Source: Bradyrhizobium sp. 186
GTDB taxonomy: Bacteria; Pseudomonadota; Alphaproteobacteria; Rhizobiales; Xanthobacteraceae
NCBI RefSeq assembly: GCF_023101685.1
Contig: NZ_CP082164.1
Span: 1,302,001-1,366,000 of the forward strand
Direction of reading: 5' to 3'
DNA length: 64,000 nt
A program made the translations under genes and the position numbers. Positions 1,660 to 63,086 of the stretch are shown here, in pieces (position 1 is the stretch's first letter; every line of letters begins with the position of its first letter). The notes under the pieces were generated by a model. The model had not been told where the DNA came from. It ran no database searches and worked only from the letters and a program-made list of their open reading frames with translations.

Positions 1660-2922
1660 CTATTCGATTGCAGCCGGCATCTTTGCGACCGACATCAGGG
1701 AACGCGCCACCTGGTTCAACAACTGGTCGGCATTCTCCTCTTCGGCCAGCGACTTCGAGAGCAGCGCGACGATGGCACTATGACGAAGCTGCTGGGCGAG
1801 ATTGCGCGAGGTGGTGTACCCGGCAATCTCGTAATGCTCGACCCGCTGAGCGGCACCGATCAGCGCCAGATCGGCGGCGGCATCTTCCTTCTTTTCGCCT
1901 TCGGACATGATTTCTTGCCCTTCCTCGACCAGGCCCATCATGCCCTTGCACGGCTTGGCGCGGGCGGATTTGCCGAGTAGCTCGAAACATTCGTTTATGC
2001 GCTCGATCTGGTTTTCCGTCTCCACCAGATGCTGCTCGAACAGTTCGCGCAACTGATCGAAGCGGGCGGCCTCCGCCATCTTCGGCAAGGCTTTCGTCAG
2101 TTGCTTCTCGGCATGAAGGATGTCGCGAAGCTCGTCGAGCAACAGCTCGCCAAGGCCGGCCTCGTCCGTGGGCGGCGAGCTTTCCGTCACGATCGCGGTT
2201 CCCGGGCCGGGTTCTCCCGCCTGGATGGCCGGGGATTCCGTGAAGACCAAGTCGCTGCCTTCGTTCCACGGCCCGCGCGTGTCGATCTCGCCATAGTCGC
2301 CGCTGCCCGTGGAATCGTTGAAGAACTGATTGACTAGTCCGGGTGTCGGGGCGATCCGGCCGATGCTGAAAGCAGGCTTGCCCATGCTCTCAAGCGCCAG
2401 CGAGAAGGCTTTCATATGCGTGATTTCGCGGGTCATCAGGAACTGCAAAGCGTCCTTGGTGCCGGCGTCGTCGCAGAAATTGATCAGCTGTTCATAGACG
2501 ATCTTGGCCCTTGCCTCGGCGGCGATGTTGCTGCGCAGGTCGACGTCGAGTTCTCCGGTGATCTTCAGATAGTCGGCGGTCCAGGCATTGCCCTGCGAGT
2601 TGAACAGGTTCACTCCGCCGCCGCCGGCGATCGCGATCAGCGGATCGGCTTCGGCGGCCTCGCGGTCGAACTTCATCGGCTTGAGGTGCATACGGGCGAG
2701 GGTGCCCACAATCTCCAGATGGCTCAATTCTTCGGTGCCGATGTCCATCAGCAGATCCTTGCGATCCGGATCCTCACAATTCAGGCCCTGTATCGAATAC
2801 TGCATCGCGGCGGCGAGTTCGCCGTTGGCGCCTCCAAACTGTTCGAGAAGCATATTGCCGAAACGGGGCTCCGGCTCGTCGACGCGGACGGTGAACATCA
2901 GCTTCTTGACGTGGTGATACAT
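1660..2922 (-). CDS. manganese catalase fused to a DUF892 (YciF-like ferritin) domain
   Basis: A 420-residue protein. Residues 1 to about 290 are a complete manganese catalase, which disproportionates hydrogen peroxide at a di-manganese centre. It starts with the family signature MYHHVKKLMFTVRVDEPEPR. Candidate metal ligands are Glu35, Glu65 and His68, with further Glu and His in YEQLINF and TREITHMKAF. After a linker of about 40 residues, a second four-helix domain of the DUF892 type begins at LLLDELRDILHAEKQL and runs to the end. I chose the ATG at 2922 over upstream starts because MYHH is the conserved N-terminus and GAGG sits six bases before it. It is divergent from the PAP2 gene. Fused forms of this type are, to my knowledge, found in rhizobia, and a role in general stress is likely. 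Confidence 0.9.
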   Translation of the reverse strand: MYHHVKKLMFTVRVDEPEPRFGNMLLEQFGGANGELAAAMQYSIQGLNCEDPDRKDLLMDIGTEELSHLEIVGTLARMHLKPMKFDREAAEADPLIAIAGGGGVNLFNSQGNAWTADYLKITGELDVDLRSNIAAEARAKIVYEQLINFCDDAGTKDALQFLMTREITHMKAFSLALESMGKPAFSIGRIAPTPGLVNQFFNDSTGSGDYGEIDTRGPWNEGSDLVFTESPAIQAGEPGPGTAIVTESSPPTDEAGLGELLLDELRDILHAEKQLTKALPKMAEAARFDQLRELFEQHLVETENQIERINECFELLGKSARAKPCKGMMGLVEEGQEIMSEGEKKEDAAADLALIGAAQRVEHYEIAGYTTSRNLAQQLRHSAIVALLSKSLAEEENADQLLNQVARSLMSVAKMPAAIE

Positions 2923-2957
2923 GGGAGACCTCGAATGCGAGCGGGGGATCGATTGCG

Positions 2958-2982
2958 AACCAGACGCGGAGAGGTTTGTTCC
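2958..2982 (-). promoter_or_regulatory. putative EcfG (general stress sigma factor) promoter for the catalase
   Basis: Reading the minus strand, GGAAC is followed after 16 bases by GGTT. This closely fits the alphaproteobacterial sigma-EcfG consensus (GGAAC, about 16-17 bases, CGTT). It ends 36 bases before the catalase start codon. Assignment is by motif only. Confidence 0.5.
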
Positions 2983-3100
2983 TACGGCGGTATAGGATTC
3001 GACGCTTCGAGAGCGCGCCTGCATCGGGAGCCGCATAAGAACTTTGAGGCTGTCCGCGCGTTGAAAAAGGTACCCGCCCTTTACCGGATCCCAGGGAGCC

Positions 3101-3718
3101 ATGTTCACCGCAACTCATCGCCTCAATCGTCGCAACTTTCCGATCTCCGTCCGGCCGACCGAAGCGGACGTCGCCATCGCCCGCGGAATCGCGCGCCACA
3201 CGGCTCCAGCTCCGGAGGAAGTGGCACGCGCCCTGACCTGGGGCGCCGATGAAAAAATCCTTTTGGTTCTGGCCACGGCCGGCTGGGTTTTCTCTCGCGG
3301 CCGCAGCGAACCGTTGCAGCGGGCGGGCAACCACGCGCTGCTGGTGACGGCCGCAGCGTCCCTGCTGCCGCACGTGCTGAAGTCGCTGTTCAATCAGACC
3401 CGCCCGGACCGCAGGACGGTGGTCGGGCACATCCACGACGTCTCGTTCTCCGGAAAGCGCCAGGATGCCTTTCCCTCCGGACATGCGCTGCACATGGGCG
3501 CTTTGGCGTCAGCAGCGGGCGCCTTGCCGCCTGGGCCGCGACGGACGGTCCGCGCGCTCGCGGTAGGAATCTCGCTGACGCGCATCGTGGTTCTGGCGCA
3601 CTGGGCGAACGACGTCGTCGCGGGTTTCGCGCTCGGAGCAGTGCTCGAACGCCTGCTGAGGCTATGGACGGGTTATCCCATCGCCTGTTCAAAGGAGATC
3701 GATCATGCCGACACTTGA
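3101..3718 (+). CDS. PAP2-family phosphatase
   Basis: A 205-residue membrane-associated acid phosphatase of the PAP2 type, which removes phosphate from lipid phosphates or related substrates. The three signature motifs are present in order: KSLFNQTRPDR (about residues 90-100), FPSGHALHM (about 124-132) and SLTRIVVLAHWANDV (about 152-166). Hydrophobic segments between them fit membrane passes. It overlaps the downstream cupin gene by 14 bases, which suggests one transcript. It diverges from the manganese catalase. The physiological substrate cannot be read from the sequence. Confidence 0.85.
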   Translation: MFTATHRLNRRNFPISVRPTEADVAIARGIARHTAPAPEEVARALTWGADEKILLVLATAGWVFSRGRSEPLQRAGNHALLVTAAASLLPHVLKSLFNQTRPDRRTVVGHIHDVSFSGKRQDAFPSGHALHMGALASAAGALPPGPRRTVRALAVGISLTRIVVLAHWANDVVAGFALGAVLERLLRLWTGYPIACSKEIDHADT

Positions 3719-18177: not shown

Positions 18178-19611
18178 ATTACAGTTGCTTTGTTTGCGGG
18201 CTTCTGAATCCATGGGCAACCATGATTCGAATGTCGTGGACGCGGGCCGCGTCGGTTGAGGAGACGCTTGCGTTGTGGGCGGCGTCGCTTCGAGAGATCA
18301 AGCAACGGATACGTCCGTTGTTCACGCAAGAGCGTGTGGCGACGAATGCAGGCTTGTTCCTGGAAGGTCTGCTCGGAGATGAGCAGCGCAAGACCGGCTG
18401 GATGCGCGCGGAGGCGGCTGGCGATCCTGGCCCATGGCGTCAGCAGGCAATTCTGGGTCGTGGAGATTGGGACGCTGATGCCCTGCGCGATATCGTCCGC
18501 GACTATGTCATCGAGCATTTGGCGGATGACGATGCGGTGCTGGTGATCGACGAGACCGGCTTTCTCAAGCAGGGTAAGGCCTCATGCGGAGTGGCACGGC
18601 AATACACTGGTTCGGCAGGGAAGATTACGAACTGCCAGATCGGCGTCTTCGCTACCTACGTTTCGCGTCATGGTCATGCGTTCATCGATCGCGCGTTGTA
18701 TCTTCCGAAGGAATGGACTGACGATCCAGATCGTCTGGAAGCCGCATATGTGCCTGCCGATGTCGGCTTTGCGACCAAACCAAAGCTTGCGACGAGAATG
18801 ATCGCACGTGCGATAGCCGCGTCTGTACCATTCAAGTGGGTTGCCGGTGACACGGTCTACGGTGTTGGCGATATCGAACAGCAGCTACGGCGGGCAGGCA
18901 AAGGCTATGTGCTCGGGGTCAGCAGCTCTCATGTCTTCCGATCCTGGGGCAAGCGACAGCCGGTCGCCGGCAAGGCCGAAGACATCGCCCGGACGCGGCG
19001 CCCGTCCGACTGGAAGCGCTTGTCGGCGGGAGCCGGAACCAAAGGACCGAGGCTGCATGACTGGTGTTATCTCGAACTGGCCGATCTCGAGGTCGAGCAG
19101 TTCAACAGCGCAAATGATGGTTTATGGACGCGCGGTCTGCTGATCCGTCGCCATATCGCCGATGGCGATCTCGCCTTCTTCACCACCTGGTGCCCAGCGG
19201 GAACATCAATTGAAACGCTGGTCGCGGTCGAAGGCCATCGATGGGCGATCGAGGACAGCTTTGAAACCGCGAAAAACGAGTTCGGGCTCGATCACAACGA
19301 GAGCAGGTCCTGGCATGGCTGGCATCGCCACGTGTCCCTGGTGATGCTCGCCTTCGCCATGATGGCGGCGATCCGCCATCGCGCCAATCCGCCACCGCCC
19401 AAAAAAACCAAACGCCGCCCCCCGGCAAAAGCCAAAGCACACCCACGCCGCCGCTGATCCGTTGGTCAATCCAGGAAATCCGCCGCATCGCCATCAGGCT
19501 TGCTCGAAAGCGGATCCAACCCGCGCATGTCATCGCATGGTCATTCTGGCGCAGAGCTCACCAGGCTGCCGCTCAGCGCGCGCATCTCAAAGCAAAACGG
19601 CAACTGTAATG
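18178..19611 (+). mobile_element. IS701-family element, copy 1
   Basis: The ends are CATTACAGTTGC-type inverted repeats (right end reversed as GCAACTGTAATG). They are flanked by the 4-bp target duplication TTAG (18174-18177 and 19612-19615). The family is known for YTAR-type targets. The left boundary could be off by one base. Copy 2 lies at 44501-45935. The right TTAG is also the left target of an IS5-family element. Confidence 0.88.
18222..19457 (+). CDS. IS701-family transposase, copy 1
   Basis: A 411-residue DDE transposase of the IS4/IS701 group. First acid in VLVIDETGFLKQGKAS, second in WVAGDTVYGVGDIE, Glu region in GHRWAIEDSFETAKNEFGLD. The protein ends in a basic Pro/Lys tail. Immediately after the stop, the -1 frame encodes about 50 further residues that look conserved (LIRWSIQEIRRIAIRLARKR to KAKRQL). 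The family member may normally be longer. Both copies have the same ending, so the change predates their separation. Confidence 0.9.
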   Translation: MIRMSWTRAASVEETLALWAASLREIKQRIRPLFTQERVATNAGLFLEGLLGDEQRKTGWMRAEAAGDPGPWRQQAILGRGDWDADALRDIVRDYVIEHLADDDAVLVIDETGFLKQGKASCGVARQYTGSAGKITNCQIGVFATYVSRHGHAFIDRALYLPKEWTDDPDRLEAAYVPADVGFATKPKLATRMIARAIAASVPFKWVAGDTVYGVGDIEQQLRRAGKGYVLGVSSSHVFRSWGKRQPVAGKAEDIARTRRPSDWKRLSAGAGTKGPRLHDWCYLELADLEVEQFNSANDGLWTRGLLIRRHIADGDLAFFTTWCPAGTSIETLVAVEGHRWAIEDSFETAKNEFGLDHNESRSWHGWHRHVSLVMLAFAMMAAIRHRANPPPPKKTKRRPPAKAKAHPRRR

Positions 19612-44500: not shown

Positions 44501-45935
44501 CATTACAGTTGCTTTGTTTGCGGGCTTCTGAATCCATGGGCAACCATGATTCGAATGTCGTGGACGCGGGCCGCGTCGGTTGAGGAGACGCTTGCGTTGT
44601 GGGCGGCGTCGCTTCGAGAGGTCAAGCAGCGGATACGTCCGTTGTTCACGCAAGAGCGTGTGGCGACGAATGCAGGCCTGTTCCTGGAAGGTCTGCTCGG
44701 AGATGAGCAGCGCAAGACCGGTTGGATGCGCGCGGAGGCGGCTGGCGATCCCGGCCCATGGCGGCAGCAGGCGATCCTGGGTCGCGGGGATTGGGACGCT
44801 GATGCCCTGCGCGACATCGTCCGGGACTATGTCATCGAGCACTTGGCGGATGACGATGCGGTGCTGGTGATCGACGAGACCGGCTTTCTCAAGCAGGGTA
44901 AGGCCTCGTGCGGAGTGGCGCGGCAATACACTGGTTCGGCAGGGAAGATCACGAACTGCCAGATCGGCGTCTTCGCTACCTACGTTTCGCGTCATGGTCA
45001 TGCGTTCATCGATCGCGCGTTGTATCTTCCGAAGGAATGGACCGACGATCCAGATCGTCTGGAAGCCGCATACGTGCCTGCCGATGTCGGCTTTGCGACC
45101 AAACCAAAGCTTGCGACGAGAATGATCGCACGTGCGATAGCCGCGTCTGTACCATTCAAGTGGGTTGCCGGTGACACGGTCTACGGTGTTGGCGATATCG
45201 AACAGCAGCTACGGCGGGCAGGCAAAGGCTATGTGCTCGGGGTCAGCAGCTCTCATGTCTTCCGATCCTGGGGCAAGCGACAGCCGGTCGCCGGCAAGGC
45301 CGAAGACATCGCCCGGACGCGGCGCCCGTCCGACTGGAAGCGCTTGTCGGCGGGAGCCGGAACCAAAGGACCGAGGCTGCATGACTGGTGTTATCTCGAA
45401 CTGGCCGATCTCGAGGTCGAGCAGTTCAACAGCGCAAATGATGGTTTATGGACGCGCGGTCTGCTGATCCGTCGCCATATCGCCGATGGCGATCTCGCCT
45501 TCTTCACCACCTGGTGCCCAGCGGGAACATCAATTGAAACGCTGGTCGCGGTCGAAGGCCATCGATGGGCGATCGAGGACAGCTTTGAAACCGCGAAAAA
45601 CGAGTTCGGGCTCGATCACAACGAGAGCAGGTCCTGGCATGGCTGGCATCGCCACGTGTCCCTGGTGATGCTCGCCTTCGCCATGATGGCGGCGATCCGC
45701 CATCGCGCCAATCCGCCACCGCCCAAAAAAACCAAACGCCGCCCCCCGGCAAAAGCCAAAGCACACCCACGCCGCCGCTGATCCGTTGGTCAATCCAGGA
45801 AATCCGCCGCATCGCCATCAGGCTTGCTCGAAAGCGGATCCAACCCGCGCATGTCATCGCATGGTCATTCTGGCGCAGAGCTCACCAGGCTGCCGCTCAG
45901 CGCGCGCATCTCAAAGCAAAACGGCAACTGTAATG
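44501..45935 (+). mobile_element. IS701-family element, copy 2
   Basis: Same element as 18178-19611, flanked by TTAG at 44497-44500 and 45936-45939. Compared by eye with copy 1, about eighteen differences lie in the first half, while the last 850 bases or so appear identical. It begins 145 bases after the second-type IS701; that gap holds no gene. Confidence 0.9.
44546..45781 (+). CDS. IS701-family transposase, copy 2
   Basis: A 411-residue protein almost identical to copy 1 (one visible amino-acid change near residue 26, ReV for ReI). Nucleotide changes are mostly silent. Same catalytic motifs (VIDETGFLKQ; AGDTVYGVGD; HRWAIEDSFETAKNE) and the same 50-residue tail in the -1 frame after the stop. 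Silent substitutions with conserved protein suggest both copies stayed under selection or spread separately. Confidence 0.9.
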   Translation: MIRMSWTRAASVEETLALWAASLREVKQRIRPLFTQERVATNAGLFLEGLLGDEQRKTGWMRAEAAGDPGPWRQQAILGRGDWDADALRDIVRDYVIEHLADDDAVLVIDETGFLKQGKASCGVARQYTGSAGKITNCQIGVFATYVSRHGHAFIDRALYLPKEWTDDPDRLEAAYVPADVGFATKPKLATRMIARAIAASVPFKWVAGDTVYGVGDIEQQLRRAGKGYVLGVSSSHVFRSWGKRQPVAGKAEDIARTRRPSDWKRLSAGAGTKGPRLHDWCYLELADLEVEQFNSANDGLWTRGLLIRRHIADGDLAFFTTWCPAGTSIETLVAVEGHRWAIEDSFETAKNEFGLDHNESRSWHGWHRHVSLVMLAFAMMAAIRHRANPPPPKKTKRRPPAKAKAHPRRR

Positions 45936-49962: not shown

Positions 49963-50454
49963 TCATGCGGGGTCATCCTGGCGAATGAGCCGCTTCTCGT
50001 AAAAGATCACTGCATATCCGTGCAACATCCCTTCCCCGCGGCGAACATAGCCAGCGCTCTCATAAAGTCTTTGGGCCCCTACTTGGATCGTTGTTGTGTC
50101 GAGCATTATCCACTTGAAACCGAGAGCAACAGCTCGCGACTCCAATTCACGAAGCACCCTCCTTCCAAACCCTCGTCGCTGAAAGACGGGGTCGACCCGC
50201 ATACGTTTTAGTTCTGCGACATCATCATCAAAAGGTTTCAGCCCACCCATGGCAGCGAATCGGGGACCAATATGCGCAACTACGAAGTCTCCGCCCGAGG
50301 CGATGTATACTTCCCCGATATTGCGTAAATCATCCTCCCAAGCCCCTTCCGGGCCACACACACCAACATCCTGCGATGCGCTTCTGTGCAGATGCCATAC
50401 ATCATCGCTATCCCCGGACGCGAACCGACGAACGATCAGTTCGTCTTGAGACAT
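49963..50454 (-). CDS. GNAT-family N-acetyltransferase
   Basis: A 163-residue protein with the GNAT fold: N-terminal strand ELIVRRFASGDSDDVWHLHR, then VAHIGPRFAAMGGLKPFDDD, then AELKRMRVDPVFQRRGFGRR, with QRRGFG as the acetyl-CoA pyrophosphate loop. The end is LYESAGYVRRGEGMLHGYAV. Substrate unknown. It follows the PrnB-like gene on the same strand after 84 bases, so it could be the third gene of that operon, perhaps modifying its product. A chance neighbour cannot be excluded. Confidence 0.85.
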   Translation of the reverse strand: MSQDELIVRRFASGDSDDVWHLHRSASQDVGVCGPEGAWEDDLRNIGEVYIASGGDFVVAHIGPRFAAMGGLKPFDDDVAELKRMRVDPVFQRRGFGRRVLRELESRAVALGFKWIMLDTTTIQVGAQRLYESAGYVRRGEGMLHGYAVIFYEKRLIRQDDPA

Positions 50455-50538
50455 CGACTATTACCTCTCGACCGGTGGCGGACGCCTGCGCCTCTGGCAT
50501 CGTTGTCTGTTTTTAGCCGCGCAGAGACCACCGTCGGC

Positions 50539-51753
50539 TTACCGGCGCGCCTCTGTCAACAGCCGCTGAGAAAGGACAGCCTCAACACTTTCCGATACCT
50601 CAACTCCGACAACTGGACGACCCGGCTCAACCGTATATTTTAAGGCCGTACTACGGTGCATCCGGGTAAACCGATCCAGTGCACAAACACAGGACGTGCG
50701 CAGCGTTCCGATTTCGCCGCCGTGATGCTCCACGACTGGCGAAATGGTCGCAACCCTGGGAAACTCCGCTTTCCCCTTTAGCCAACCTGGCTTGAGCGGT
50801 GCACTCCCTTTGCCTGACGACAGCCAGCGGAATACCTCGTGAATGCATCTCTGCGGATAATATTCGGACAGCCGATACAGATCCCTATAAAATTGCGGTT
50901 TCTGGTGGAAGAGTTCTTCACCGACCAGTAGCACCGAGACCGCCACGATACGGGCCGAGAAGCGGCCGCTTGGACCAAGCGTATTCTTGTAAGGATTCTT
51001 TCCGTAAAACACACGAAATTGGCCAAATAAGTCCGGCGACATATGTTCATAAAAGCGCGTCAGAACATTGTTTGCTGACTCAAGGCGCTCCAGGCATAGC
51101 GCAAGACATTGCCCCGCATCCACGTCGGCCACATCACGCAACTTAAGCAGAGCGTCCATTGCTGACTGCAATTCGCTCTCGATGATCTGATGGCCCAAGC
51201 AAAAATCTCGCTCCTCGACCCCGGCCGCGCCGAGGCAGTATACGCGTGGATCGTTCTGCAACGGATTCGTAAGGATCATATCTTCATAGGAGAGGACCTC
51301 AATGCCAGGCTGCCGTTGACAACTTGAGCGCGCAAGGCGGCTCAGTACCTCTCCCACCGTCAGCTCGGCGTCCACGGGATGAAGGCCGGCAAACGCAGAC
51401 ATCTGATAAGCACAATTTACGAGATATTGGATGTCTGTCTTAGCGATCTCGAAGTCCGACTGCGGCAGACTTAGCAGCTGCGCTTCATAGTCCGTCTCCG
51501 CAATCATCGCGTTGATGCTACGCCCAAGAGCCTTAACCGCTTCATCTGGTCGTTCACTGCATTTGATCTCCGCAATGCAGTGCGGCAGTTGATCGGCGAC
51601 AAAATTGCTGACCAGCCCAAGCGGGCGTTCTCGCTGCCGGCGATCAATGCTATCGGTCAGATGCGAAAATATGTCCTCCGCCTGGCAGGGCGACCCTTGC
51701 GGGGTGGAAACGGAAAAAGGAGCGACCATAAATGAGCGCGCCCGCGACTTCAT
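50539..51753 (-). CDS. PrnB/IDO-like putative heme protein
   Basis: A 404-residue, mostly helical protein. It contains FYGKNPYKNTLGPSGRFSAR, then IVAVSVLLVGEELFHQKPQF, and a C-terminal part with VVEHHGGEIGTL and LDRFTRMHRSTALKYT. The GPSG segment and late His-rich helices are the pattern I associate with the DUF1864/PrnB group (monodechloroaminopyrrolnitrin synthase), related to indoleamine and tryptophan dioxygenases. MHR would be the candidate heme ligand. Those enzymes rearrange or oxidise the indole ring of tryptophan. The start ATG overlaps the stop of the radical-SAM gene (ATGA), so the two are translationally coupled. Family placement is moderate; substrate is unknown. Confidence 0.55.
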   Translation of the reverse strand: MKSRARSFMVAPFSVSTPQGSPCQAEDIFSHLTDSIDRRQRERPLGLVSNFVADQLPHCIAEIKCSERPDEAVKALGRSINAMIAETDYEAQLLSLPQSDFEIAKTDIQYLVNCAYQMSAFAGLHPVDAELTVGEVLSRLARSSCQRQPGIEVLSYEDMILTNPLQNDPRVYCLGAAGVEERDFCLGHQIIESELQSAMDALLKLRDVADVDAGQCLALCLERLESANNVLTRFYEHMSPDLFGQFRVFYGKNPYKNTLGPSGRFSARIVAVSVLLVGEELFHQKPQFYRDLYRLSEYYPQRCIHEVFRWLSSGKGSAPLKPGWLKGKAEFPRVATISPVVEHHGGEIGTLRTSCVCALDRFTRMHRSTALKYTVEPGRPVVGVEVSESVEAVLSQRLLTEARR

Positions 51754-53225
51754 CGAAACGCAACTTGCATTTCGGCACTTGACCCGTATCGTGCGGCCGG
51801 TGAGTAATCGTGTTTTTCGAGCAGATCAGTTCGTTTGTCTATTATCCTACTGTCGTTGTACGCGACCCGCTCGAGTATATTGTTCGAGAAAAATAGCAGC
51901 GATACGGCGCCCGAATTGATAGTGCCGGCGGCAGTTAACGAAAGCAGGCCATCGTTTGAAATGCAGATGAGACCTGCCTCCTTCAAGAGTTCAAGCTCGC
52001 GGCCAAAGCATTTCTCGATGGACACCCCAAACTCCCGCTCGAAGCGGGAGAGCAACACCCCACTGCTTCGCAGGGCAAACATTACCGTTCTGCGCATGAG
52101 ATCATCTTGCGACAGGACAACACCCTTCCACACAGGCTTCTCGCCCGCCTCAACCCTATACAGGTAGCGATCTAAATCTGCCTCGTTATAGAACTGGCAC
52201 TGGCTCATGTAACCAAATCCGGCAACCCCAAACGGGACCAGATTATTGTCGTTCCAGGAATCGTATTTGCGGCTCTGTTGAACCGAGTGTGGCTGCGACT
52301 GCTTACTCCAATAGAAAATCGGCCCATGGCGATAGCCGAGTTTCGTGAGGATGTGCTCGGCCATAAAATGCATGATAATGCGCTCCTTAGCCCCGGCAAA
52401 TTGATATCGTCCCCGAGCCAAATGGCGGGCTACGGGGTCTGTAGATTTAAACATCAATGGGAATACATTGAACTTCTCTATTCCCATATCCAGTAAGCCG
52501 ATAAGTGAGTCGTACCAGCTCCGGAGCGTTTGCTGCGGCAACCCATACATGAGGTCAAGCGACAGATTCTCAACGCCCATCTCATTCAGTAACTTTACGA
52601 GTTGTACTACCTCGTCCACGTGGTGCCCGCGGTTCAATATGCGTAAAATGCTCGGATCTAGACTCTGAACGCCCAATACGAAGCGGTTTACGCCGGCTCT
52701 AAGCAGTGTGGAGATGCGATCTGCAGCGTCCACTTGCTTTGCAAGAGAGGGATGCAATTCGAAACTCACCTCCGACTTAGACAAATCAAAGCGCCGGCTA
52801 ATCATACCAAATAGCGTTTCGAGTTGACGGTTGGTCAAGAACGAGGGAGTGCCGCCTCCAAAAAAAGCAGTCTCAACAGCTCTGCCGGCCAGCGCCGCGT
52901 CCGACCAACTCATCTCTTTATCTAAAGCCGCCAGATAGCGCTCCACTCGCCCGGAAGATGGATTGATTTCCTTGGCGAAGTGGCAAAAGGTACAATACTG
53001 ATCACAGAAGGGGATGTGAAAATAGAGATCAATTGACGACGTAACCTGAAGCAACAACTTTTCGGCATTCAGGTCTCCCATTGCCTTGAGAGGCGGATAT
53101 GTGCCGACAAGATAATCGTTGTGCGTGTCAAGGTGCAAATTCCGTGACCTCAACATGTCAAGGTTAATGTCGTACGAGCGGTCGATCGCGAATTCCAAGG
53201 CCTCGGAATAGGTCGGCGCGCGCAT
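51750..53225 (-). CDS. HemN/HemW-like radical SAM enzyme
   Basis: A 491-residue radical SAM protein. The cluster motif is YFHIPFCDQYCTFCHFAKE (CxxxCxxC). The glycine motif is FFGGGTPSFL, the SAM ribose region includes FELHPSLAKQ, and GVNRFVLGVQSLDPSILRIL and DLMYGLPQQTLRSWYDSL follow as in HemN/HemW. A C-terminal HemN-type domain comes next. After the third Cys it has HF rather than the extra Cys of true HemN. It is thus closer to HemW, heme-degrading or class C methyltransferase/cyclopropanase enzymes than to coproporphyrinogen dehydrogenase. The start ATG has AGGAG eight bases upstream. It is coupled to the PrnB-like gene by a four-base overlap. Rhizobial genomes annotate similar proteins as hemN. 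Confidence 0.85.
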   Translation of the reverse strand: MRAPTYSEALEFAIDRSYDINLDMLRSRNLHLDTHNDYLVGTYPPLKAMGDLNAEKLLLQVTSSIDLYFHIPFCDQYCTFCHFAKEINPSSGRVERYLAALDKEMSWSDAALAGRAVETAFFGGGTPSFLTNRQLETLFGMISRRFDLSKSEVSFELHPSLAKQVDAADRISTLLRAGVNRFVLGVQSLDPSILRILNRGHHVDEVVQLVKLLNEMGVENLSLDLMYGLPQQTLRSWYDSLIGLLDMGIEKFNVFPLMFKSTDPVARHLARGRYQFAGAKERIIMHFMAEHILTKLGYRHGPIFYWSKQSQPHSVQQSRKYDSWNDNNLVPFGVAGFGYMSQCQFYNEADLDRYLYRVEAGEKPVWKGVVLSQDDLMRRTVMFALRSSGVLLSRFEREFGVSIEKCFGRELELLKEAGLICISNDGLLSLTAAGTINSGAVSLLFFSNNILERVAYNDSRIIDKRTDLLEKHDYSPAARYGSSAEMQVAFR

Positions 53226-53504
53226 TTTTTAAACTCCTCTAGCTTTCGTGTGAAGGCAAGGCGCGATGGCAGCTTCGTTCCTCGTGTCACATCGCGCTCT
53301 TCAGCTCGGGCTCGATACCGAAGTCGTGCATTTCGATCAAAGGCGCGGATTTGTCGGCTCCCACTCGAGGCAACCACCGTAGACCAGAACGAGTGTCGCC
53401 ATCCGCTCGGGGACACGCGGGATGATTATGGTTCGGCGAGGAAGACAGATGCCGTGGCCGAGGCCGAATGTCCTTGGCGTTGCGAAACGGAACCGAGGAA
53501 GACT

Positions 53505-53930
53505 TCAGGCGCCGAGGAGTGCGAATACTGCTCGAGAAAATGGTGCTCCACCTCCGAGTGTGACCAGCACCGAGTCGGGCGCCGAGCTCGATCTCCTCCA
53601 GCGTGCCATTAAACAACTTCTGTCCGCTCCCCTCTTCGAAAGGAGGCGGCCATTGCTCGAGACCAAGCTTGATTTGGTTTCCTCCCGGTCCGACGCCGAC
53701 ATTCGCATACCGCTGCATGCATTCGCCACAGAGCCGCCCAAACGTGTCACACTGGTTTGGATTTGCTCGGGAGTAAGCGCGCTGAATGCTAGTCGCTTCT
53801 GGTGGTCTTGAGAGTTATCCAACGCGAAGAACCACAGCGGCACCCGCGAGGGACGCGGCAAAGCTTTAGGCAGGACCGCACTCAATAGCGCAGCGTCCAG
53901 GGCGATTTGGATCAATCGAGCAAGTTTCAT
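53505..53930 (-). CDS. hypothetical protein with hydrophobic N-terminus, possibly damaged
   Basis: A 141-residue frame from ATG 53930 with an excellent AGGAG five bases upstream. The N-terminus MKLARLIQIALDAALLSAVL looks like a membrane anchor or targeting helix. The rest is Ser/Arg-rich without motif, and a frame on the same strand (53287-53718) overlaps its end. The gene may therefore be frameshifted. It lies upstream of the radical-SAM gene on the same strand, 280 bases away. No family recognised. Confidence 0.4.
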   Translation of the reverse strand: MKLARLIQIALDAALLSAVLPKALPRPSRVPLWFFALDNSQDHQKRLAFSALTPEQIQTSVTRLGGSVANACSGMRMSASDREETKSSLVSSNGRLLSKRGADRSCLMARWRRSSSAPDSVLVTLGGGAPFSRAVFALLGA

Positions 53931-54412
53931 TTGAACTCCTGGGCCGGCGAATGCGAGACCGTCATGGTCGTGCGGATCCTTTACGGTGTCCTAGCAATCC
54001 ACGTGCCACCAAAGAGATTTGCGAGCCGCCTCGCTTGAAGAGGGCAACACGATGTGCTTCGCGTCCACCGACGGAATACTCGCTCCTCAGTGTCTGGTCC
54101 CGGACATTAACGTCTTCAGCCGGACACGGCTGAACACGACAACGCGGAATGTTGAATGACGATGGCGGCCTCTCATGCCGAACTCGAACATCCGCTCCAA
54201 CGGCGACCTTACGACCGAATCGCTCGTCTGATGGATGCAGCGTCCCGGCACGTGATCGATATGCAAATGAACTCGTCGCTTTCTTGCGGTGGGGTGGCCA
54301 CGGAGCGACTTCGATCTATTGGCGGCGCTCGGCGCGGACTTGCCATGCGCGGTGCGCGTCGTTCCGAGCGACGAGGCTCGCCGCAGCGCGTCGGCGCGGC
54401 CGACTCTCCGGT

Positions 54413-54870: not shown

Positions 54871-55314
54871 GTGAGAGCTTCTCTCGATGGCGAAATTCGC
54901 GACGGCGGCCATCATATGCAGGTCCGCGTCTATTTCGAAGATACTGACTCCGGTCAGATTGTTTATCACGCAAATTTTTTGCGCTTCATGGAACGCGGTA
55001 GAACGAACTACTTGCGCCTGCTCGGAACCACTCAGCAAGCGCTACTCAAAGAAGCCAAGAACGATGCGCCCGGCTTTGCCTTCGTTGTCCGCTCCATGAC
55101 GATCGATTTTCTAAAACCGGCGGTCTTGGATGACCTGCTTGACGTCGTCACAGTCCCGCAAGAGGTGAGGGGAGCGTCGATTGCCTTGCTGCAGGAATGC
55201 AGGCGCGGAGACGATCTCCTAGTCACGGCGCGTGTACGCGTGGCGTTTATTTCAGCCGGAAAGGCGCAGCGCATCCCGAAGTCGCTGCGGCTCGCTATGG
55301 AAGGGCTTAGATAA
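54871..55314 (+). CDS. YbgC/FadM-type acyl-CoA thioesterase
   Basis: A 147-residue hot-dog-fold thioesterase. The catalytic signature is VYFEDTDSGQIVYHANFLRF, with Asp in DTD followed by MERGRTNYLRLLG. The core strand section VRSMTIDFLKPAVLDDLLDV is also present. It hydrolyses acyl-CoA; in Tol-Pal-linked members the role concerns envelope lipids, but no tol genes are near. Start GTG 54871; an in-frame ATG at MQVRVYFED is the alternative. A second, truncated copy follows at 55399. Confidence 0.88.
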   Translation: MRASLDGEIRDGGHHMQVRVYFEDTDSGQIVYHANFLRFMERGRTNYLRLLGTTQQALLKEAKNDAPGFAFVVRSMTIDFLKPAVLDDLLDVVTVPQEVRGASIALLQECRRGDDLLVTARVRVAFISAGKAQRIPKSLRLAMEGLR

Positions 55315-55398: not shown

Positions 55399-55767
55399 GT
55401 GTTTAGCCAAGCGGTGTATCACGCCAATTACCTGCGGTTTATGGAACGCGGCAGGACCAATTTCTTGCGGTTGCTCGGGACCGATCAGCGGGCTTTGTTC
55501 GCAGAAGCCAGTGCCGATGGGGCCGGGTTCGCCTTTGTGGTCCGATCGATGCAAATCGATTTCCTGAAACCCGCATTCATGGACGATGTGCTGGATATTA
55601 TCACCGCCCCTCAAGAGGTTAGAGGCGCATCGATCACGCTGTTACAGCAATGCAAGCGCGGCGATGATCTCTTGGTCGAGGCTCGCGTGCGGGTCGCCTT
55701 TGTTGCCGCCGGCAAGGCACAGCGCATTCCCAAGGCGCTCCGGGCCGCGATGACCGGCCACGAATAA
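55399..55767 (+). pseudogene. YbgC-type thioesterase, tandem copy lacking the catalytic N-terminus
   Basis: From AVYHANYLRFMERGRTNFLR onward it matches the previous gene closely (MQIDFLKPAFMDDVLDIITA; GASITLLQQCKRGDDLLVEA). The first 30 or so residues including the FEDTD catalytic Asp are replaced by MFSQ, read from a GTG. Without the Asp it should not be an active thioesterase. It could form mixed dimers or be a dead duplicate. The 84-base gap shows no gene. Confidence 0.75.
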
Positions 55768-57140: not shown

Positions 57141-58427
57141 CTAGGCTGATAACTTTCGCGCCGCCGCACGCTCGCCGTGTTCGAAAGCGTCCACGAATTG
57201 CTCAAGCTCGTTTTCCGTCAAGCCAAGCGCGCGACCTTCCTCACGCCAGCGCGCAACAGCGGCCTCGACTTGGCCTAAGATTTCTTTCGCGCGCGCGTTG
57301 ACGATGCGGAAATACGCGATGACCGACATCAATGCGTCGATACTGGCCTCCGGTCCGGCATCCTCCGAAATCCAGGTCTTCAACTCCCGGACACGTTCCG
57401 GAAAGGGATTGATGTCGAAGGCCGGCGCCAGACGCCACTGACCCCGATCGACATGGAGAAATCCATGATTCATCAAGTGGTCGTCCACATTGGTGATCAG
57501 GATCGAAAAGGCGATCCGCCGCCAAAGTTCTTCAATATCCGCCTGCGGTTGCGAACCATGCTGGCGAAGCGCGTCGACGATTTCGGTATAGGCGTGTTCG
57601 CCCGGATCGCTGGGCTCGGCGCCCAACATGGTCGCGGCTGAGACATACATCAATCGGCCGCCCCCATCCGGCCGATCAAATCGGCGGATGAGCGCGACAG
57701 ATGCACCATCGCTGTCGATCAGCTGTGCCTGGGCTGCGTTAATGCCCGCGGCCGCTGCAAGACGAAGCGCGAGCACCTCGCCTTTCGTCACCGCTCGCTC
57801 GTCGGTGACGCTCGGAAATTTCCCGATGGACAGCCGGCCATCATCATCGACAACGGTGCATTTTGGACGCAGCCCACCAAGCGATGTTCCGCGGCCGCGC
57901 AAATAAGCGAGATCAGCCGCCGTCTCGGTGTTTGTCTCGACGGCTCTGCTGGCGGCCAACAGATGCGCTAACTCAACCAATGGGGGCGCGGTGCGCCGTC
58001 CCTCCTCGATCGCGCGCTGGAATACGCCATCTTCATCTCGGAGACGAAGGGCGCCAACCCGGCTGACATCATCGACAGAGAGCAAGTAATCAAGAGCGTT
58101 CAGTGGCTGTACGTCCATCTCCGCACCAGTGCGGCGAGCTTCCTGGCGACGCTTGGCATAATCGCGCTGGATCACGCGCCGGCCCCATCCGTCCGGTTCG
58201 GTGTCGGCGATGGCCAGATGGAAGATCGAGCCGTCCTTCGCCTTGCGATGAAACTGCGCGCCCGTGACCAGCGGTAATGCCGGATCGATTGCGAACCGAT
58301 CCGGCGCCGCGAGCCAGGCCGGATCGTATTCGAACGCAGCGCTCTCGCGTGCTCCTTGCTGGTTGTAGTGGATGGCGCCGAGAGGCCGGGCGTCGTCGCC
58401 GATCTGAAGCTGGATCGTGCGTTTCAT
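57141..58427 (-). CDS. hipA: HipA-family kinase toxin
   Basis: A 428-residue HipA protein. N-terminal subdomain includes LPLVTGAQFHRKAKDGSIFH. The Gly-rich loop GRGTSLGGLRPKC, a Lys in SIGKFPSVTD, the catalytic loop LITNVDDHLMNHGFLHV (D and N present), and the metal motif APAFDINPFP follow in order. All key residues are retained, so it should be an active Ser/Thr kinase. In HipA of E. coli the target is glutamyl-tRNA synthetase; other clades differ. The four-base overlap with hipB couples their translation. Confidence 0.92.
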   Translation of the reverse strand: MKRTIQLQIGDDARPLGAIHYNQQGARESAAFEYDPAWLAAPDRFAIDPALPLVTGAQFHRKAKDGSIFHLAIADTEPDGWGRRVIQRDYAKRRQEARRTGAEMDVQPLNALDYLLSVDDVSRVGALRLRDEDGVFQRAIEEGRRTAPPLVELAHLLAASRAVETNTETAADLAYLRGRGTSLGGLRPKCTVVDDDGRLSIGKFPSVTDERAVTKGEVLALRLAAAAGINAAQAQLIDSDGASVALIRRFDRPDGGGRLMYVSAATMLGAEPSDPGEHAYTEIVDALRQHGSQPQADIEELWRRIAFSILITNVDDHLMNHGFLHVDRGQWRLAPAFDINPFPERVRELKTWISEDAGPEASIDALMSVIAYFRIVNARAKEILGQVEAAVARWREEGRALGLTENELEQFVDAFEHGERAAARKLSA

Positions 58428-61333: not shown

Positions 61334-62248
61334 TCACTTAAGAACTGCGATCAACTGAGCCACAAGCTTTTCGCGATCTGCGGCACGCAGCTTATCAAGA
61401 TTGATCTGCTTCCATCGGACTGCGGGAAGCTCTGCCGCTCCATCGACGCCCAACAGAGCCCAATCTGGCTTCCCGCGCTTGAATCCGATCAGAAATTCCC
61501 GATGCTCCTTCGGCATCTTTCCAGCTACCTCGGCGATCAAGTCCTCGCGGGCCTTCAATAGCTCATCCAGCGAGACCGGATCTGAAGTCATACCCTCGAA
61601 GCCGTGCTCGAACTCCTGGCGGATATCCTTTCGCCGCGGCACCACAACTTCAGAAATGGGCCGGTCATGGCTGATGAGATAGACGATGAAAGCGCGCCTC
61701 AGGTCGTCGCTGATGCCCTCATTCGCCAGAAGATCGCGGATGTCAAAAAGATCGCGAGGATGTTGGCGGTCAAGGGCGGCGACGATTTTTCCCGCGTAGA
61801 GGTCGGAAAACGAGACGACTTGTGTCTCCGCAAAACCAAAGCTCTCCTCGACGTTCGGAAGCACGGATCTCATCTCGGGATCGAAGACGCAGCCGCGAAG
61901 GACGGGAGTGACTTCGATCTTGATCTGGGCGTCGGCCCTCTGAAGTGTCAGCTTGGTAACGATGCCTTCCGCGCGGTTCACGACCTCATTCACCTTGACG
62001 CCCGGAATTCCCTTGCCAATGGCGACAGCCATTCTTTTCATGCCCGCATCGATCGCGGCCAGCGATTCCGGCCGGCCGGCGACAGGCAGGTAGGTCAAGT
62101 CGATATCGACTGACAAACGCGGCATATCGCGCACGAATAGATTGATCGCAGTCCCGCCTTTGAGAGCAAAATCCTTTTCCGCCGCAACGAATGGCAAGGT
62201 CTCGATCAGCAGCGCAACCTGATGCCGATAGCGTTCAGATAGGGGCAC
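61334..62248 (-). CDS. abiEii: AbiEii/AbiGii-family nucleotidyltransferase toxin
   Basis: A 304-residue protein of the DNA-polymerase-beta nucleotidyltransferase superfamily. FALKGGTAINLFVRD (GG motif) is followed by LSVDIDLTYLPV (the two Asp). Then come QIKIEVTPVLRG and the conserved FSDLYAGKIVAALDRQHPRD. All motif residues are present. It is the toxin of the AbiE bacteriostatic system, thought to modify tRNA ends and give abortive phage resistance. Its start overlaps the end of the antitoxin gene by 14 bases. Confidence 0.92.
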   Translation of the reverse strand: MPLSERYRHQVALLIETLPFVAAEKDFALKGGTAINLFVRDMPRLSVDIDLTYLPVAGRPESLAAIDAGMKRMAVAIGKGIPGVKVNEVVNRAEGIVTKLTLQRADAQIKIEVTPVLRGCVFDPEMRSVLPNVEESFGFAETQVVSFSDLYAGKIVAALDRQHPRDLFDIRDLLANEGISDDLRRAFIVYLISHDRPISEVVVPRRKDIRQEFEHGFEGMTSDPVSLDELLKAREDLIAEVAGKMPKEHREFLIGFKRGKPDWALLGVDGAAELPAVRWKQINLDKLRAADREKLVAQLIAVLK

Positions 62249-63086
62249 TGAGATCCTCCGGCACGGTGATCAAATATTTCGGATCGAGCCTTCCGCCTTT
62301 CACCAGCATGCGCTTTCCTTTCCCCAAATCGACCTTGTCACGGTCTATTTGCTTCAGCCATGAATGGTTGTGCCGGTCGGCAAACCAGAAGAACAGCCTT
62401 TTGACTTTCACGCTTCTGCAACTGTCCAGCAGCTTTTGCAGCTTGCGGGGACTGAGGTTGCGCAAGCCCTCAACAAGCATGTCGACCTGGTGGAAGCTCT
62501 CGCTATGCGGCAGCTCGTCGAGCAGTTCGAGCAACGCCCGTTCGGGCGATGAGATGGTGAGCGGCCATTCGCTCTCGCCCCATATCTGCTTGAATGGTCC
62601 TGCCTGAAACTCATCGGCAGCTGCGCCGGTATTGTTCTGGACATTCCAGGCGAAGTTCTTGAGCCCCTTCGTCACGAGATCGGCTTTGAAGAGCGTTGTG
62701 CTCTTGCGGAATGTGAAGTGCTCTTTGAGCGGAAGCTTGAAGAGCCATCCGGGCGGAGCATCCGGACCGTAAAGATAAACAACGGTCGGTCCACTCGCTC
62801 TGAGGTAGTGCGAAAAGCCTTGCAGTTCGAGCGCTGTTCGCCCTCCGACGATCAGGGGGCACTCAAGCAGCGTCTGAAGCGATATGACCGCCTTCTGCCA
62901 TGTCAGAGTGCCAAGCGGGCGCTTGAAAGTTCCACGCGTCGGCTGAACCAGCCAGCCAGCCGAGACATACTGGCTGCGCAGGCCTGTCGAATAGCCATGC
63001 TTCGTCATCCACCCAGCATCGACCAATAGGCCTTCCGGCAGGGTATGTTCGAGGCAGTTTAGCTTTCCGCCGGAAGGCTTAGTCAT
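62235..63086 (-). CDS. abiEi: AbiEi-family antitoxin
   Basis: A 283-residue protein. The N-terminal winged helix (LLVDAGWMTKHGYSTGLRSQ; YVSAGWLVQPTRGTFKRPLG) is followed by the larger C-terminal domain typical of AbiEi (LIVGGRTALELQGFSHYLRA; ISSPERALLELLDELPHSES). AbiEi represses its own operon through inverted repeats and counteracts AbiEii, acting as a type IV antitoxin. The start ATG 63086 has no Shine-Dalgarno but sits seven bases after a good -10, so the transcript is likely leaderless. Confidence 0.92.
   Translation of the reverse strand: MTKPSGGKLNCLEHTLPEGLLVDAGWMTKHGYSTGLRSQYVSAGWLVQPTRGTFKRPLGTLTWQKAVISLQTLLECPLIVGGRTALELQGFSHYLRASGPTVVYLYGPDAPPGWLFKLPLKEHFTFRKSTTLFKADLVTKGLKNFAWNVQNNTGAAADEFQAGPFKQIWGESEWPLTISSPERALLELLDELPHSESFHQVDMLVEGLRNLSPRKLQKLLDSCRSVKVKRLFFWFADRHNHSWLKQIDRDKVDLGKGKRMLVKGGRLDPKYLITVPEDLSAPI

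Follow-up and report, generated by a model that had tools for sequence, protein, structure and literature searches.

A putative NifA/sigma-54-controlled operon of symbiotic rhizobia encoding an IDO-fold protein, an acetyltransferase and a HemN-like radical SAM protein

The 64-kb window analysed here, 1.302-1.366 Mb of the 10.77-Mb genome of Bradyrhizobium sp. 186, contains a radical S-adenosylmethionine (SAM) gene, a gene for a 404-residue protein with the fold of indoleamine dioxygenase (IDO) and a gene for a GNAT acetyltransferase, preceded by matches to a sigma-54 promoter and a NifA activator site. Our reading, tentative and a little short of an even chance, is that this is an operon of symbiotic rhizobia, switched on by NifA and sigma-54, in which an IDO-fold heme enzyme, the GNAT and the radical SAM enzyme make a small molecule in bacteroids. 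We prefer it because NifA/sigma-54-type control is found together with a restriction to nodA-bearing strains, a heme oxygenase-like protein that is at times fused to the GNAT, and a radical enzyme that can be dispensed with. What we observed is the order of the genes, their distribution, the conserved residues, the predicted fold, the signs of selection and the promoter and activator sites; from these we infer heme binding, substrate, reactions, order of the steps and expression in bacteroids. An earlier note on the same DNA had proposed a compact pathway to a modified indole metabolite. As a whole that interpretation is partly supported, its product can only be inferred, and it did not contain the two most informative features, the NifA/sigma-54-type control and the restriction to nodA-bearing strains.

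Promoter, activator site and leader

Over both strands of the window there was one perfect match to TGGCACNNNNNTTGCW, the promoter of the operon, where dinucleotide shuffles give an expectation of 0.05. A perfect TGGCAC-N5-TTGC(A/T) was found 200-790 nt before the radical SAM start in 26 of 27 scanned loci, which are kin, so that these are not independent events. The 27 are the 26 loci with an intact radical SAM gene and the frameshifted L012; the exception, L016, has a promoter with two mismatches. The site fell inside the first-scanned 700 nt in 19 loci and at 732-790 nt in seven loci of the window's clade, and mononucleotide shuffles of the 700-nt regions never produced it (0/1080). Altogether the 27 loci hold 35 perfect sites per 936,480 strand-bases, the 26 included.

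The usual NifA activator site is TGT-N10-ACA, and the one in the window lies 98 nt upstream of the sigma-54 site (start to start). An exact site near the promoter was present in 12 of the 27 loci, counting the window, and the remaining 15 have NifA sites with one mismatch at similar spacing, mostly in pairs. The promoter consensus is as given for Mesorhizobium loti, where the activator site is printed as TGT-N10-AGA in the accessible part of the source (PMC3538637). It appears that the operon carries NifA/sigma-54-type control, and it may be expressed in bacteroids.

The promoter is followed by a leader of 767 nt, in which a conserved start codon and a GGAG resembling a ribosome site occur. 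Many loci share ATGAAACTT..CGATTGATC, often accompanied by GGAG, at about 53-63 nt downstream of the promoter. The open frame within the leader shows no clear coding selection, with a ratio of nonsynonymous to synonymous changes (dN/dS) of 0.5-1.5 (15 pairs from six close loci of the window's clade, few changes). A small conserved peptide gene, such as the precursor of a ribosomally synthesised and modified peptide, was rejected on this ratio and because the end of the frame differs per clade and is shortened in L005, L016 and L021. It is possible that the leader is what remains of a lost first gene, or that it is an untranslated RNA. Boxes resembling those of FNR/FixK (TTGAY-N4-RTCAA) occurred in some leaders only and were dropped as not general.

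Distribution and link to nodA

Of 265 Bradyrhizobium genomes, 52 carry the heme protein in whole or in part, a few of them (e.g. G304, G384 and G396) as fragments only. Strong NodA matches (E < 1e-50) were present in 139 of the 265, and weak ones in 24 more. All 52 belong to the 139, and none of the other 126 genomes carries the gene (Fisher p 1.1e-17, kinship ignored). An even sample of 377 genomes across the order gave two with the heme protein, both Bradyrhizobium. Within these samples the operon is confined to nodA-bearing strains. Distances to nodA were taken from 19 genomes of 1-3 contigs, chosen with both genes on the main contig, which was treated as circular with sizes rounded; in 12 of them the heme gene is 32-559 kb from the listed nodA. 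In the window's own genome nifH is about 300 kb from the operon, and nifA is 12 kb from nodA and 3.6 Mb from the operon.

Gene arrangement, conservation and selection

When the longest frames are taken, the three genes are intact, the radical SAM and heme-protein genes share a four-base ATGA and a gap of 84 nt precedes the GNAT gene, all as the earlier note had described. ATGA also ends the radical SAM gene in 21 of the 26 other loci. In 15 of these 26 the second gene can be read from the overlapping ATG or GTG; in the other 11 that codon is out of frame and the second gene has to begin later. Since many database relatives begin at Met9 and the overlapping codon is out of frame in those 11 loci, it is possible that the 404-residue protein truly begins there.

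Forty loci (28 Bradyrhizobium, 7 Mesorhizobium, 4 Rhizobium, 1 Sinorhizobium) were collected by scanning a collection of genome contigs with two family-specific patterns, which remoter relatives could escape. The trio is intact in Bradyrhizobium, Mesorhizobium and Rhizobium, in keeping with the conservation across rhizobia that the earlier note looked for; R. gallicum IE4872 carries it on plasmid pRgalIE4872c with a perfect promoter. Of the 41 loci that include the window, 26 have an intact radical SAM gene and one has a copy interrupted by a frameshift. Four keep a remnant, and in ten, among them L033 at a contig end, none was found in the sequence available. The frames of the heme protein and the GNAT are full-length in 35 and 37 of the 41, and those of all three genes in 26. 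Nine plasmid records contain at least 80% of the heme protein, three of them with a full radical SAM orthologue and two with a partial one.

Selection was estimated with our own Nei-Gojobori script on pairs with dS 0.05-1.2. Median dN/dS was 0.107 for the radical SAM protein (range 0.06-0.20; 26 sequences, 290 pairs), 0.214 for the heme protein (0.14-0.45; 35 sequences, 548 pairs) and 0.205 for the GNAT (0.12-0.51; 37 sequences, 641 pairs), which agrees with the earlier claim that the intact frames reflect selection. In the 26 loci where none of the three genes is broken, pairwise distances of the proteins correlate with r 0.90-0.94, and 0 of 2000 permutations reached this level. The low medians and the correlated distances show that the trio is more than a chance arrangement.

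The heme protein

The likeness to PrnB and indoleamine dioxygenases seen in the earlier note holds for the fold, IDO being the closer of the two. Foldseek and structural alignment of the predicted structure revealed the IDO/TDO-type helical fold, which is also that of PrnB. Pfam and NCBIfam profiles were scored against their curated cut-offs, and the one Pfam match was to IDO and below threshold (PF01231, 10.7 bits as compared to a cut-off of 26, E 0.22), so that the expected IDO/TDO profile match was obtained at a level outside the family proper. At E <= 1, 16 of 25 family members match PF01231, the best with 2.8e-5. The predicted fold was matched to IDO1/IDO2 and the bacterial IDO SO4414 over 311-329 aligned residues, at 11-18% identity. 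The proximal histidine and the carboxylate arginine of these IDOs are collinear in our protein, as is the distal histidine of two bacterial IDOs. His366 aligns with the proximal heme histidine of IDO, and Arg247 (substrate carboxylate) and His188 (distal base) with bacterial IDO; each is conserved in 25 of 25 aligned sequences. Heme binding through His366 is predicted. The motifs ERDFxxGH and GPSGRF, peculiar to the family, and the apparent NifA-type control of the operon set it apart from IDO.

PrnB belongs to the same superfamily, has the same fold (2v7i, Foldseek rank 9, E 3.4e-3) and has a pathway-type role, as proposed here. Its profile PF08933 (DUF1864), which the earlier note had put forward, nevertheless matched 0 of 25 members at E <= 1, and a comparison of profiles was weak (E 0.12). 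The genome itself has no PF08933 match at E <= 0.001, and with Pfam and NCBIfam equally without support PrnB membership was rejected. The 50 VIA matches listed contained no PrnB row, an absence without evidential weight. MarE and TDO share the distal His/Arg pair, and GPSG resembles by eye their PASG/DATG loop after the Arg, as described in the part of PMC11904535 that was available; they seem to differ in the cap loop and rank 25th and below in Foldseek, behind IDO and PrnB. The protein would act as a pathway enzyme of the HDAO superfamily (IDO/TDO/PrnB/MarE), outside the PrnB and IDO families proper.

Distant relatives are P0041 and P0042 (31-32% identity) and a Kitasatospora plasmid homologue (30.6% over 53% of the query) that retains ERDFxxGH, the Arg, a GASG loop and the His. 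On this plasmid of Kitasatospora fiedleri (L116:17737-20211) the homologue adjoins a gene annotated as biotin carboxylase, by eye ATP-grasp ligase-like, and the pair is possibly another small pathway of the heme family.

The acetyltransferase and its fusion to the heme protein

The 163-residue protein matches GNAT in Pfam well over the cut-off. In four Rhizobium loci and in P0028 it forms a single polypeptide with the heme protein, which suggests that the two act together. The fused gene of R. tropici CIAT 899 is RTCIAT899_RS33970 on plasmid pRtrCIAT899b, and a radical SAM remnant precedes it. On the same plasmid hxsA/hxsC, of His-Xaa-Ser radical SAM maturation, lie about 7-8 kb from the fused gene (L117:18003-19203). 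The GNAT was found at E <= 1e-20 in 26 of 146 genomes, always next to the heme gene or a piece of it.

By function label it can be likened to NrgA/bll1906 of B. diazoefficiens, a NifA-controlled GNAT; the parts of the sources at hand give log2 -5.0 for this NrgA homologue in nifA-mutant nodules (PMC4926349, PMC6515984). The role of the NifA-dependent nrgA and nrgBC is described as unknown, with no part in nitrogenase, in the accessible text of PMC10454721. The GNAT of the window differs in occurring, at the threshold given above, only beside the heme gene.

The radical SAM enzyme

Pfam recognised Radical_SAM and HemN_C in the 491-residue protein, both well over cut-off. It scored 195.7 bits as compared to a cut-off of 324.95 for HemN (TIGR00538), 155.5 (156.2 in a repeat) to 205.4 for HemW (TIGR00539) and 170.3 (E 6e-50) to 400 for HutW/ChuW (TIGR04107), and these identities were rejected. 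HNxxYW is the heme motif of HemW; the genome's own HemW has HNLVYW, and the protein has KYDSWND in its place. Identity to HemN is 25%. The protein belongs to a TYPPLK subfamily without its own NCBIfam model, whose members are annotated as coproporphyrinogen-III oxidase family, and actinomycete relatives (39-48% identity) make up a wider subfamily. The routine hemN annotation conceals a different enzyme, as the earlier note had suspected.

Its assignment to class C is less clear. The HemN fold, CxxxCxxC and residues at the second-SAM contacts are all present, and they are common to HemN itself and hence not diagnostic; the equivalence to NocN is by spacing only. The protein is under every NCBIfam cut-off listed, which separates it from the class C methylases NocN, NosN and C10P as well as from HemN. 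A methylase or cyclopropanase activity would fit the fold.

Proposed pathway

On our reading, NifA and sigma-54 RNA polymerase would turn on the trio alongside the nif genes in microaerobic nitrogen-fixing bacteroids. The 404-residue protein would carry heme on His366, bind an aromatic amino acid by its carboxylate through Arg247 and use His188 as distal base, and most likely would add oxygen to tryptophan or a tryptophan derivative. These are the likeliest substrates, as the positions with which IDO, TDO and MarE bind the indole amino acid appear to be conserved here. The GNAT would acylate the amine of the product. The radical SAM enzyme would bind two SAM molecules and add or move a one-carbon group on an sp2 carbon of the substrate or product, in class C chemistry, as a tailoring step that may have been lost in some lineages.

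Several observations weigh against this pathway. The structural model (AlphaFold2) is of medium confidence (pLDDT 75, pTM 0.76) and has no heme in it, and the cap loop (GTGGS in TDO, SLGGR in MarE) could not be recognised by eye in the sequence that follows His366, which leaves room for another substrate. Of the nodA-positive Bradyrhizobium genomes, 87/139 are without the heme gene, which implies that it is not essential for nodulation, and for 7 of the 19 genomes measured, the window's own included, its distance to nodA is 2.0-3.6 Mb. Among the 40 collected loci, 15, with L033 at its contig end counted, retain the heme gene although their radical SAM gene is either absent or broken, and no radical SAM gene was seen among the 31 listed features around the Kitasatospora homologue, which weakens the universality of the pair. 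The promoter was also sought in 17 more loci, most of which lack an intact radical SAM gene; it was perfect in two (L118, which is R. gallicum, and L025), had one mismatch in five (L020, L034-L037) and was not found in ten (L117, L028-L031, L033 with scarcely any upstream DNA, L038-L040 and L120). Compared to 26 of 27 this suggests that promoter and radical SAM gene tend to be retained or lost together. No sigma-54 site was found within 3 kb of the fused gene of R. tropici CIAT 899. B. elkanii USDA 76 (JEY66_RS44875) has an intact heme gene, a GNAT split into three frames, no radical SAM gene near and no sigma-54 site in 3 kb, and this lone heme gene lowers our confidence. As the copies in these two strains lack a working radical SAM gene, the enzyme is not obligatory.

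Alternative explanations

Such losses would be easily explained if the radical SAM protein were a dedicated HemW-like chaperone that loads heme into the IDO-like enzyme and leaves the substrate untouched, with housekeeping HemW substituting where it is lost. Its gene overlaps or abuts that of the presumed heme protein, and its HemN and HemW scores are high though sub-threshold. The shortfall from the HemW cut-off, the KYDSWND in place of the heme motif and the wider actinomycete subfamily all speak against a chaperone, and we find it unlikely. Heme or another tetrapyrrole could also be the substrate itself, opened or methylated as by ChuW/HutW, the IDO-fold protein merely binding heme. The HutW score, and the tetrapyrrole (corrin-type) methylase and CobB/CobQ genes upstream of the trio in 8-10 Bradyrhizobium loci, are in its favour; these loci also have NiFe-hydrogenase genes downstream (context from neighbour-protein clusters, families checked on eight genes). 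However, the score is far from its cut-off, the cobalamin-type genes neighbour the trio in a single group of loci, at several kb, and a distal His and an Arg that never vary suit an amino-acid pocket, which makes this quite improbable.

The IDO fold and the conserved landmarks of the tryptophan pocket would also agree with an operon that depletes nodule tryptophan, by an IDO-type degradation step or as a brake on auxin synthesis, with the GNAT and radical SAM enzyme processing the product. By analogy, more tryptophan is reported from nodules of B. diazoefficiens nifA and nifH mutants in the available part of PMC4926349, whereas nifA-mutant nodules of a different rhizobium, Paraburkholderia phymatum, are slightly lower in it according to the accessible part of PMC8305402. 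The sub-threshold PF01231 score, the apparently different substrate-cap loop and a radical SAM step that is unusual in plain catabolism leave this explanation a small chance. Finally, the trio has decayed in several loci (e.g. L020, L025, L037, L040 and B. elkanii USDA 76), as a functionless relic in a pseudogene-rich island would. For intact copies this is contradicted by a dN/dS below 1 in every pair used, by the full-length frames in 26 loci and by the conserved promoter, and we consider it very unlikely.

Features and neighbouring genes

Features of the operon in the window (positions 5' to 3' of the forward strand)
Feature	Position	Strand	Remarks
Radical SAM gene	51750-53225	-	491 aa, HemN-fold; reading frame and Pfam
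Heme-protein gene	50539-51753	-	404 aa, IDO-fold, probably histidine-ligated heme oxygenase-like; start may be Met9
GNAT N-acetyltransferase gene	49963-50454	-	163 aa; fused to heme protein in some rhizobia
Sigma-54 (RpoN) -24/-12 promoter TGGCACG-N4-TTGCT	53993-54008	-	motif match
NifA-type upstream activator sequence TGT-N10-ACA	54091-54106	-	motif match
Long leader, promoter to first gene	53226-53992	-	encloses open frame 53505-53930

Directly upstream of the operon, the plus strand carries a pair of neighbouring thioesterase (4HBT) genes that resemble each other (54871-55314 and 55399-55767). Elsewhere in the window there are a HipA-like gene (57141-58427), an AbiEii/AbiEi-type toxin-antitoxin pair (61334-63086) and a single frame with a manganese catalase domain and a DUF892 domain (1660-3108). 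A 411-residue DDE transposase-type gene (Pfam DDE_5) is present in two copies (18222-19457 and 44546-45781). The copies differ only within the first 528 bases and agree fully over the last 708, a pattern suggestive of recent gene conversion.

Biological meaning

Few bacterial regulons have been studied as well as the nif regulon. Judged by titles and the beginnings of abstracts, the literature searched, mostly without subscription journals, held no description of this operon and no paper combining PrnB, indoleamine and radical SAM. A more specific outcome, which we regard as doubtful, is a natural product coupled to nitrogen fixation, in which an undescribed heme oxygenase family, a class-C-like radical SAM enzyme and an acyltransferase would give a modified (e.g. 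C-methylated, oxidised, N-acylated) tryptophan-derived molecule only in fixing nodules; its target would be the legume, or the auxin/tryptophan balance of the nodule. The operon offers a clear knockout and a clear enzyme for assay, and R. gallicum IE4872 is a strain known by name in which both the trio and its promoter are intact. In this conserved module with apparent NifA-type control, a heme enzyme that presumably uses O2 would work beside a radical enzyme that is presumably sensitive to it, within the microaerobic nodule. If our reading is true, the heme protein would be a new family for the small HDAO superfamily, and the module would point to a signal or protective compound made by the bacteroid.

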